In this document: positions 67 through 3,769 of the stretch, in pieces
Numbering within the stretch: position 1 is the first letter of the stretch
Layout: each line of letters starts with the position of its first letter
IMG/VR virus record: IMGVR_UViG_3300039210_000128
Span: 1-35,867 of that record
Strand: one strand, 5' to 3'
DNA: 35,867 bases
Source of the DNA: a virus
Program-made: the position numbers and the translations under genes
Notes under the pieces: generated by a model
What the model was told of the DNA's origin: nothing
Databases searched by the model: none
Seen by the model: only the letters and a program-made list of their open reading frames with translations

Positions 67-1455
67 ATGCCTCTCGTCCCGCTGTTGGCGGTCTCCGGTT
101 CCGCGACCGGCACGTGGGCTTCAACCCTCGATGATTCAACGCTGGCAGGGGTTGGCACCGAGAGCTTTACCGGCACCCTTGCCACCACACTGGACGACTC
201 GGTTCTGTCCGCTGCGGTCACCGTGGCCAACCCGGTCACCGGCACCCTTGCCTCGACCTTAGACGACAGCGTGCTCGCGGCGAGCGGGTCGGTGACGGTC
301 AACATCACCGGCACCCTCGCAACCACCCTCGACGGCTCGGTCCTGGCGGCGACAGGCTCCGAGACGTTCACCGGAACACTTGCCTCCACCCTCGGTGATT
401 CCGTCCTTGCGGCGACTGGCACGGAAACCATCACCGGCACCTTGGGCTCCACGCTTGATGACTCGGTACTGGCCGCCGTCGCCACAGAGACCATCACTGG
501 AACCCTGACCGCCACACTGGACGCCGCCACGCTGGGGGCCGTCGCTGCTGAGACCATCTCGGGCACCCTAGCGGCCACACTGGACGACAGCATCCTGGCC
601 GCCACCGGTACGGTCACCAGCTCCGACGTGACTGGCGCGCTCGCCACCACCCTCGACAACTCGGTGCTCGCAGCGACCGGTACTGAGACCCTGTCCGGGA
701 CCCTGGCCTCGACCCTGGACGACGCGGTGCTCGCCGCCGCCGGGGTCGTGGCGAACCCGATCACCGGAACTCTCGCGACAACACTGGCCGATGCCGTACT
801 AGCGGCAAGCGGCACAGAGACGTTCACCGGAACGCTCGCCACCACCCTCGCCGACAGTGTACTCGCGGCGACCGGTACGGAAACCATCTCCGGAACCCTC
901 GCCGCCACCCTTAGTGACGCCGTCCTCGCGGCAACCGGCTCGGCCATAATCCCGGTCACCGGCACCCTCGCGACCACGCTCGATGACGGTGTGCTGGCTG
1001 CTGTCGGCACCGAGACGATCACTGGAACCCTGGCCGTCACCCTCGACAACGCCATGCTTGCCGCGGTCGGTTCCGAGACCCTGTCCGGGACACTGACTGC
1101 CACCCTCGATGACGCCGTGTTGGCCGCCGCCGGGACAGTGATACTCAACGTCACCGGCACCCTAGTCACGGTCCTCGAAGACGCCGAGCTGCTGGCAGTC
1201 GGCACGGAAACCTTCACCGGCACACTGATAGTCACTCTCGACGATGCGGTGCTGCTCGCGGCAGCCGTCATGGCTGGCGCCTTCCCGCTCGCTACCGACC
1301 CGAGGCTCACCCTCACCCTGCCCGGCTCCGCGCTCGCGCTCGACGTCCCAATCTCCGCGGTAACCATCGACGCGCCAACCTCAACACTGACCATCGACAC
1401 GCCCACCTCAGTGACCGCGCTCACCCTGATCGACTCACGACTGGAGTTGGTGTGA
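67..1455 (+). CDS. Repeat-built tail fibre / appendage protein
   Basis: This 462-residue protein is almost entirely tandem repeats. Eighteen copies run from about residue 14 to residue 401. Most are 21 residues long, several are 23 and one is 24, with a core of the form TGTLATTLDDSVLAA followed by GTET or a longer linker. Regular alternation of small, Thr and hydrophobic residues suggests a beta-solenoid or fibrous rod. The last 60 residues leave the repeat and carry shorter Thr/Ile/Asp/Ala repeats such as TIDAPTS. It lies at the end of the late operon and overlaps the next gene by 4 bases, which fits a tail-tip fibre or decoration that contacts the host surface. I chose ATG 67; ATG 60 is in another frame. 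The role is inferred from architecture and position, not from a recognised family. Confidence 0.8.
   Translation: MPLVPLLAVSGSATGTWASTLDDSTLAGVGTESFTGTLATTLDDSVLSAAVTVANPVTGTLASTLDDSVLAASGSVTVNITGTLATTLDGSVLAATGSETFTGTLASTLGDSVLAATGTETITGTLGSTLDDSVLAAVATETITGTLTATLDAATLGAVAAETISGTLAATLDDSILAATGTVTSSDVTGALATTLDNSVLAATGTETLSGTLASTLDDAVLAAAGVVANPITGTLATTLADAVLAASGTETFTGTLATTLADSVLAATGTETISGTLAATLSDAVLAATGSAIIPVTGTLATTLDDGVLAAVGTETITGTLAVTLDNAMLAAVGSETLSGTLTATLDDAVLAAAGTVILNVTGTLVTVLEDAELLAVGTETFTGTLIVTLDDAVLLAAAVMAGAFPLATDPRLTLTLPGSALALDVPISAVTIDAPTSTLTIDTPTSVTALTLIDSRLELV
106..1269 (+). repeat. 18 tandem 63/69/72-bp coding repeats
   Basis: The repeats begin at codon 14 of the fibre gene and the last one starts at position 1216. 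Unit lengths in residues are 21,23,23,21,21,21,21,24,21,23,21,21,23,21,21,23,21 and then a final shorter unit. The longer units carry an insertion in the linker (VANPV, VTVNI, SSDV, IIPV, ILNV types). The DNA copies differ at many synonymous positions, so the array is old or diversified rather than freshly expanded. Confidence 0.85.
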
Positions 1456-2298: not shown

Positions 2299-3117
2299 TT
2301 AGGCCGCGACTGGTGCCACGGCGTATACAGCGGCCCGCATCGCCCCGTCCGGGACGGCGGTGTAAATCTGCGTGGTCGTCACCGACGCGTGCCCGAGCAA
2401 GGTCTGCACGGCCAGAATGTCACGCTCGTAGGCATAGCAGAGACTGGCAAATCTGTGGCGTAGGCAATGAGCACTCCAGCCCGGGCCCAACAGCGCGCTG
2501 AGAAGCCGGCTGATGTGGTGCGGCGACAGATGTCCATTCACCTGGCCTGCGAACACCCACCCGGACGGGCACCGCTCGAGCTCGCCCGCGAGCGTGGGAT
2601 GCAAGGGGACGGTGCGTACTCGCCCGCCCTTGCCGGTCACCCGGAGTGAGCAATCAACGATGTTCGATGTGTGGACACGCGAGATCTCGCTGACGCGCAA
2701 TCCCGCGAATGCAGCGAGGTGCAGCATGAGACGCTCTCTGCTCGTCGCGTTCGCGATTGCCGCTGTCAGTACATCAGTCGGCGCCGGCCGTGGCCGGCCG
2801 GCGGGTACTCGCACGGTGGGCAGGTTCTCGGCTGGTGAGTGCGCGGTCTTCTCGGTGAGAACAGCCCACCGGAAGAAGCCTCGTGCCGCAGCACGAGCAC
2901 TCTTGCGCGCCTCGGGACCCCACGTCGATGTACCGATGAACTGCGTCAGGTCGTCGAGCGTCACGAGGTCGGCCACCGGGTAGGAGGCCGCCAACCGGCC
3001 GAGATAGAAGCGCCGCTGCACAATGGTGCCAGGGGATCGGCCACCTGCCGCCAGCCACATGCAATAGTTGTCGATGTCCGTCCACCCGACCATTGCGACT
3101 CTTCCCAGGCTGCTCAC
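2299..3117 (-). CDS. int: Tyrosine-family site-specific integrase
   Basis: The protein recombines attP with a host tRNA gene. Counting from the internal Met of MVGWTD, it has an N-terminal SAM-like core-binding domain (about 1-85) and a catalytic domain with all six residues: Arg133 (GLRVSEI), Lys155 (TGKGGR), His209 and Arg212 (HCLRHR), His235 (LLGHAS) and Tyr244 (TQIYT). GTG 3117 is chosen because GTGA overlaps the repressor stop (TGA 3116-3114), matching the coupling used throughout this genome, with AGAGG eight bases upstream. ATG 3093 (264 residues, preceded by GGGAAGAG) is a good alternative. The reading frame stays open upstream through attP, but that part is repressor sequence in another frame. 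The C terminus ends in VAA, like an ssrA degradation tail. Confidence 0.93.
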   Translation of the reverse strand: MSSLGRVAMVGWTDIDNYCMWLAAGGRSPGTIVQRRFYLGRLAASYPVADLVTLDDLTQFIGTSTWGPEARKSARAAARGFFRWAVLTEKTAHSPAENLPTVRVPAGRPRPAPTDVLTAAIANATSRERLMLHLAAFAGLRVSEISRVHTSNIVDCSLRVTGKGGRVRTVPLHPTLAGELERCPSGWVFAGQVNGHLSPHHISRLLSALLGPGWSAHCLRHRFASLCYAYERDILAVQTLLGHASVTTTQIYTAVPDGAMRAAVYAVAPVAA

Positions 3118-3470
3118 GCCGCTCGCCTCTGGGAGAAGCCATCGGATCTTGGTCGGGCCAACCTTAGTCCGTAATGTCCATAACCCGTAGGTTCGGGGTT
3201 CGAATCCCCGACAGCCCACTCGTCCGGCGGACTGGTGTCGTCTCCGCTGCGCAGCCACTCGTACGGCACGCCGCAGCGCATGGCCCATAGGCGCATCGTC
3301 TGCATCGACGCCGGATGCCGACCGTTGATCCAGGTGCTGACCGTGTTGCGCGCCACGCCGAGGTAGTCGGCCATGTCGTGTACGCCGATGTCGGCGTCGC
3401 GTAGCGCCTTGCGCATCCGGTCTGCGGTATCCCAGACCGGGACTCTCGGGGAAGACGGCTGCTCTGTCAT
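3114..3470 (-). CDS. XRE-family immunity repressor, free-phage form, with attP inside
   Basis: This 118-residue protein has an N-terminal helix-turn-helix of the XRE/Cro-CI class, with the recognition region at about residues 32-51 (MADYLGVARNTVSTWING). Residues 85-97 are encoded by the tRNA-like attP core, and residues 98-118 lie beyond it, ending in SQRRAA. Integration at attP would replace everything after about residue 97. The free-phage C terminus ends in -AA, as ssrA-like degradation tags do. It starts at ATG 3470, is transcribed away from the excisionase-like gene across the divergent control region, and its stop overlaps the integrase start. This is the arrangement of integration-dependent immunity in mycobacteriophages such as BPs. 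Repressor identity is inferred from the HTH and position. Confidence 0.88.
   Translation of the reverse strand: MTEQPSSPRVPVWDTADRMRKALRDADIGVHDMADYLGVARNTVSTWINGRHPASMQTMRLWAMRCGVPYEWLRSGDDTSPPDEWAVGDSNPEPTGYGHYGLRLARPRSDGFSQRRAA
3180..3219 (+). other. attP: attP core: 3' half of a tRNA gene
   Basis: The segment folds as the 3' part of a tRNA: anticodon-stem 3' strand CCCGT (3184-3188), variable loop AGGTT, T-stem CGGGG/CCCCG (3194-3198 and 3206-3210), T-loop TTCGAAT (3199-3205), acceptor strand ACAGCCC (3211-3217) and discriminator A (3218). No 5' half is present, so it is not a functional tRNA gene. It is the phage copy that rebuilds the host tRNA after integration. The tRNA identity is uncertain: bases at the anticodon position read CAT, but position 33 is C rather than the invariant T, so homology may end just inside the anticodon loop. 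The site lies within the repressor coding sequence, next to int. Confidence 0.85.
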
Positions 3471-3577
3471 GCAATGACTGTTGCACAGACATGGAGCACC
3501 GCGCAAGAGAATCACGAATCCAAAATAATCGCCGCAGGTACTTGCGCGATCGTCGTGCAATGTGCAACGGTCACCCC
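3471..3577. promoter_or_regulatory. Divergent early/lysogeny control region with operator-like repeats
   Basis: The region between the repressor and the excisionase-like gene must hold the leftward and rightward promoters. It contains GTTGCACA at 3480-3487, its inverted copy TGTGCAAC at 3561-3568, and an 8-3-8 imperfect palindrome at 3542-3560 (TTGCGCGA, TCG, TCGTGCAA). These are good candidates for repressor and/or Cro operators. No clear -10 box is visible on either strand. A TTGCGC at 3542-3547 could be a rightward -35 element for a nearly leaderless transcript. Confidence 0.55.
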
Positions 3578-3769
3578 ATGCCTGACGACCTGATTGGTAG
3601 CGCGGAAGCCTGCCGCATCCTCGACGTGTCCCGAGCCACCCTCACCCGGTGCGTAGCGGACGGACGGCTGCCGCTGGCAGTCAAGCTGCCCGGCCCGGCT
3701 GGCGCGTTCCTGTACCACCGCGCCGACGTGCTGGCGCTCCTGCGCGAGCGCGAGGCCGTGGCCAGCTGA
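3578..3769 (+). CDS. Small HTH protein, excisionase / Cro-like
   Basis: This 63-residue protein has the helix-turn-helix-17/MerR-like fold of phage excisionases: IGSAEACRILDVSRATLTR, then a short wing with PGPAGAFLYHRADVLALL. It is the first gene of the rightward operon and is divergent from the repressor, the place of Cro or Xis. ATG 3578 is used because the HTH begins directly after it. ATG 3560 is also in frame but lies inside the operator palindrome. No clear ribosome binding site precedes ATG 3578, so the transcript may be leaderless. It could be excisionase, Cro or both. Confidence 0.8.
   Translation: MPDDLIGSAEACRILDVSRATLTRCVADGRLPLAVKLPGPAGAFLYHRADVLALLREREAVAS

Follow-up and report, generated by a model that had tools for sequence, protein, structure and literature searches.

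The window analysed here, the whole 35,867-bp stretch of IMG/VR virus record IMGVR_UViG_3300039210_000128 (positions 1 to 35,867), carries a repressor-integrase cassette that very probably provides integration-dependent immunity as in mycobacteriophage BPs: a long, tagged repressor (Rep) is unstable, and the Rep truncated by integration is stable and sets immunity. Switches of this kind are already known in phages of Mycobacterium, Gordonia and Bifidobacterium, and the window phage is a new, divergent example. A mycobacteriophage-type switch had been proposed by a sequence-only reading of the window, and it is now backed by homology of Rep and integrase (Int) to published systems and by five lysogens of relatives. 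The anatomy and homology of the attachment core (3181-3218), rep and int could be seen directly, as could, in lysogens of relatives only, the pair of a long tagged and a short untagged repressor.

The attachment core lies within the repressor gene

The rep gene (3114-3470, minus strand) encodes a 118-residue XRE/CI-type immunity repressor in its viral (long) form. Pfam identified the helix-turn-helix domain HTH_3 (PF01381) and Phage_CI_repr (PF07022), and the protein matched the phrog_2328 transcriptional repressor (E=2.6e-23). Rep is ~46% identical to the repressors of the cluster P phages BigNuz and Fishburne and only about 30% to those of cluster G phages; its nearest named counterparts, at 57-60% identity across the DNA-binding domain (60% for BlueFeather), are the repressors of the Arthrobacter phages BlueFeather and Berka.

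Near the 3' end of the rep ORF, and without breaking its frame, lies a 38-bp attP common core (3181-3218, plus strand; TAACCCGTAGGTTCGGGGTTCGAATCCCCGACAGCCCA). Its sequence is that of a tRNA 3' half, presumably from a host gene, and runs antisense to the rep 3' end. It comprises the end of the anticodon loop, the anticodon stem, the variable loop, a T-arm with a perfect 5-bp T-stem and a TTCGAAT loop, the 7-nt acceptor strand and the discriminator A. Read antisense, the core encodes W85 to G96 of Rep plus two bases of the codon for Y97; the sequence-only reading, which had placed the core at 3180-3219 and assigned it to residues 85-97, was right to within 1-2 bp. ARAGORN detected no full-length tRNA anywhere in the window, which fits the presence of only one half. 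Because int lies 20 bp downstream and the rep frame is intact across the core, 3181-3218 is an unintegrated attP, and judged from its sequence the core would be identical to a host attB. It occupies the same position as the cores in lysogens of relatives, most of which encode the same antisense peptide. A chance match to a tRNA was also considered and rejected, the T-arm and acceptor strand being complete and the position matching all homologous cassettes.

Beyond the core, Rep continues for 21-22 residues with the final letters -RRAA. This virus-only tail (3114-3182, minus strand; residues 97-118 and the stop) ends SQRRAA, a candidate ssrA-like degron, within the C-terminus RLARPRSDGFSQRRAA (...GFSQRRAA, translated from 3470 to 3114). 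Translation bore out the earlier description of a 118-residue protein with this ending; the length of about 97 residues quoted alongside for the BPs repressor did not hold, since that protein has 136 residues in its viral and 103 in its prophage form (PMC4557955). An AlphaFold model of Rep, based on a 20-sequence alignment, was confident for the helix-turn-helix domain (residues 15-75) and predicted disorder from about residue 81 on (pLDDT about 45-50). Given the low model confidence there, the stretch encoded by the core and the tail beyond it are probably flexible and accessible. Taken alone, an AA end of two residues counts for little as evidence of a degron, and the long form is presumed to be unstable. 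If the target tRNA had an NTT anticodon (Lys/Asn type), the base adjoining the core would turn codon 97 from TAT to TAA, giving a prophage Rep of exactly 96 residues; in BPs the base neighbouring the core likewise makes the stop (PMC9262239).

Lysogens of relatives lose the tag at the tRNA junction

Megablast of the window against phages and a first integrase scan of viral contigs gave no matches. Relatives were sought with a repressor alignment, which retrieved ten in 84,980 species genomes and 25 in viral contigs. Seven of these, six in bacterial genomes and one in a viral contig, have a prophage rep whose 3' end runs antisense into a complete tRNA gene and stops inside it. The tRNA is tRNA-Arg in Tessaracoccus (L011) and Xylanimicrobium (L012), tRNA-Lys in Tomitella (L013) and Rhodococcus (L014), tRNA-Asn in Nocardia (L017) and the viral contig (L043), and tRNA-Val in Microbacterium (L018). 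None of these seven tRNA-junction repressors ends in AA or VA.

The excised form was built in silico by joining the rep-side and int-side junctions, both of which were available in five of the seven. The paired junctions share common cores of 35-44 bp, and the sequence differs on both flanks. Joining them changed the repressor end from GFEPPTF in the prophage to LVDRAA in Xylanimicrobium (L012/L044, 35-bp core), from QKPAD to CGTAA in Nocardia (L017/L045, 35 bp), from RSSTN to LRAVA in Rhodococcus (L014/L057, 44 bp), from QIKSL to SHLVA in Tomitella (L013/L048, 39 bp, junctions on separate contigs) and from TSTV to AARVA in Microbacterium (L018/L050, about 43 bp with two mismatches). All five reconstructed repressors are longer, ending -RAA, -TAA, -AVA, -LVA or -RVA. 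Reading the repressor end in lysogens was the check that the sequence-only reading had suggested; run on relatives, it found the tag gone at the tRNA junction in five, with a longer, tagged excised form. An identical excision test restores an 18-residue ssrA-tagged Rep tail in the Bifidobacterium prophages Bb423phi2 / 689b-1 (PMC6109161), which differ from the window phage in belonging to another host order and in using a tRNA-Met attB; here it was extended to five further genera. No earlier report of the switch in prophages of these five genera was found in the open-access literature searched.

The antisense tRNA is read by rep in all three frames (..DSNxxP.., ..GxEPxT.. and ..RARTGD..; L011-L014, L017, L018 and L043). 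Because all three frames are used, on Arg, Lys, Asn and Val tRNAs, the sequences suggest that the arrangement was assembled repeatedly and is not one inherited junction.

Two further loci did not yield an excised form. No second att core was found in the Tessaracoccus massiliensis genome, leaving the excised form unbuildable; its repressor truncated at tRNA-Arg (L011, 5971-6307) is a prophage remnant keeping only the immunity end. No convincing core was found in Microbacterium helvum (L016). In Rhodococcoides fascians (L015, 5992-7352, with L055/L064), the repressor ends at a decayed tRNA-Lys-like stop with an integrase directly after it, and another integrase lies beside a tRNA-Lys 40 kb upstream. 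The locus looks from its sequence like a tandem or remnant prophage, a type described for M. abscessus T36 (PMC9934374).

Ends of free and prophage repressors

Seven of the eight viral repressors with an integrase directly after them end in -AA or -VA (window RAA, L019 TAA, L020 SAA, L021 RAA, L022 AAA, L024 AVA and L027 AAA), and the eighth ends in -AS (L025 IAS). Counting all repressors, free or reconstructed, that have an integrase partner, 12/13 have [AV]A ends. Among long ORFs of the same loci, 7.7% end this way; as a background this figure is conservative, since integrases and repressors are included. The difference from this background (binomial, 5e-13) and from the 0/7 of tRNA-junction forms (Fisher, 1e-4) should be read with the relatedness of the repressors in mind, which overstates independence. 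The viral tails are mutually unalignable, though the repressors are related.

These counts bear on the view that the window phage is an ordinary temperate phage, in which attP merely overlaps the rep 3' end, harmless residues are swapped, both Rep forms are stable and active, and immunity is independent of integration. With the DNA-binding domain finishing around residue 75, an exchange of tails need not affect binding, and the long and short Rep forms of BPs do bind DNA similarly (PMC4557955). However, the AA/VA ends recur on non-homologous tails of free forms and vanish in prophage forms; [AV]A ends occur in 0/6 repressors that lack a neighbouring integrase (BlueFeather, Berka, L023, L026, L029 and L032) versus 7/8 with one; and the integrases bear the same -AA/-VA ends as the viral repressors. 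We therefore consider an ordinary temperate phage very unlikely and favour integration-dependent immunity. With tails that cannot be aligned and yet repeatedly end in -AA or -VA, the family offers a natural panel for defining actinobacterial degrons.

The integrase and the divergent control region

The int gene (2299-3093, minus strand) starts 20 bp past the rep stop on the same strand and encodes a 264-residue tyrosine integrase (Phage_integrase, PF00589) that keeps the R..HxxR..H..Y residues. Int is 47-49% identical to the integrases of the Gordonia phages GMA5 and McGonagall, the closest ones, and 40% to that of Angel (cluster G, BPs group). Its C-terminus, ..VYAVAPVAA, is a second candidate degron. 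This tag (..YAVAPVAA) had escaped the sequence-only reading and is a hallmark shared with the known system, in which ssrA-like tags occur on Rep and also on Int (PMC4557955, PMC9262239). Nearly all integrases of the family have -AA, -VA or -AS C-termini.

Divergent from rep lies a cro/xis-like gene (3578-3769, plus strand) for a small HTH_17 protein (PF12728; phrog_66 'excisionase and transcriptional regulator', E=3e-8), in the position of BPs gp34 and BigNuz gp35. Between the two genes is a divergent control region (3471-3577), where GTGCAAnnnTnnnTGC at 3471-3486 directly precedes the rep ATG and is conserved in about a dozen homologues (L003, L011, L019, L021-L024, L027, L029, L032, L041 and L042). 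These homologues have TTGC near -36 and no ribosome-binding site (Shine-Dalgarno) before the rep ATG. Since the conserved GTGCAAnnnTnnnTGC abuts the ATG under these circumstances, it is probably a leaderless rep promoter (Prep) with its -10 element at -12 to -7; a sigma-70 scan of the control region gave no match. On the cro side, the 15-mer TTGCACATTGCACGA at 3553-3567 (minus strand) is identical in L019 (3921-3935), and the window contains no other good copy of it. It is a candidate operator, and its sequence is unlike the BPs operator (TTGCACATTGCACGA versus CGACATATGTCG).

Search for the host of the window phage

The window tRNA half was searched exactly, with 1 or 3 mismatches and in loosened form, in genome samples drawn at class and phylum level. 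It matched nothing in about 670 distinct actinobacterial genomes, nor in plasmid, phage or viral-contig collections, and no lysogen of the window phage was found in the genomes sampled; a positive control of the pattern search worked. The best match was a Synechococcus phage tRNA-Lys (84%), which makes a Lys-type target a guess.

The missing match would also fit a relic cassette, with a core corresponding to no present host tRNA and a phage that, in its present host, does not integrate or switch: no tRNA 3' end matching the core occurs in the genomes, plasmids and phages searched. Against such decay, the core still has a perfect T-stem and full acceptor strand, rep and int have unbroken frames and retain both tags, Int has its R..HxxR..H..Y residues, and the genome sample for the tRNA-half search was small. 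A relic is exceedingly unlikely, less likely even than the ordinary temperate phage above, and we keep to a working switch.

Proposed mechanism

For the window phage we infer proteolysis, co-transcription of rep and int, repression and the exact host stop. The two genes would presumably be co-transcribed leftwards. In an infecting phage, the 118-residue Rep with its disordered tail ending RRAA would probably be a substrate of a ClpXP-type protease (as in BPs), and the -VAA end of Int would direct the degradation of Int. Given enough surviving integrase, the core at 3181-3218 would recombine with the 3' end of the host tRNA gene, joining the 5' part of rep antisense to the tRNA gene. A stop codon near residue 96 would then come from host sequence, while the integrase-side junction would carry the tag away. 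The short, stable Rep would shut off the divergent early (cro/xis) promoter, and integration itself would set immunity.

The integration-dependent switch is a simple lysis-lysogeny switch that has been argued to be ancestral to lambda-like switches. The window phage would carry it into a new phage lineage, and the relatives place it at Arg, Asn, Lys and Val tRNAs in prophages of Xylanimicrobium, Nocardia, Rhodococcus, Tomitella and Microbacterium. None of the actinobacterial genomes sampled has the tRNA half of the window, so the host lineage may be one without precedent for the switch. That it is, and that with the five lysogens the switch emerges as a widespread, repeatedly assembled actinobacterial device using all three frames, we advance tentatively, as possible rather than probable.

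Comparison with known systems

Integration-dependent immunity is established for BPs and mycobacteriophage clusters G, I, N and P (Broussard et al. 2013; PMC4557955; PMC9262239), with published cases in cluster P and G mycobacteriophages and in Gordonia GMA5/McGonagall (PMC4557955, PMC5559632, PMC9635641). The window shares with BPs-type phages the rep-int order, an attP placed at the 3' end of rep with a core that reads as a tRNA 3' end, ssrA-like C-termini of Rep and Int, a divergent Cro-like gene and an integrase without a long N-terminal arm-binding region. It differs from BPs in Rep length (118 versus 136 residues), in the residues lost (about 22 versus 33) and in the tRNA used. In BlueFeather and Berka, unlike the window, rep has no integrase beside it, the tRNA core is missing and the repressor lacks an -AA end; by their sequences they are phages with the repressor without the switch.

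The small Gordonia phages GMA5, GRU3, McGonagall and Jeanie form cluster CW (PMC5559632). In addition to the integrases, the antisense-tRNA peptides are alike (..RDSNPEPAD in GMA5/McGonagall, ..GDSNPEPTG in the window), and the viral Rep tails of GMA5 and McGonagall end AAA and VAA, likewise -AA in the window. Cluster CW phages have 17-kb genomes and a tRNA-Lys attB, whereas the window, of at least 36 kb, has a different tRNA half, and its capsid genes are nearer to those of M. abscessus prophages and Gordonia PhorbesPhlower. Following the virion genes, the window also encodes a 462-residue protein (67-1455, plus strand) with no Pfam match, built of about 21-residue repeats (63-bp units, ..GTLATTLDDSVLAATGTETIT..).
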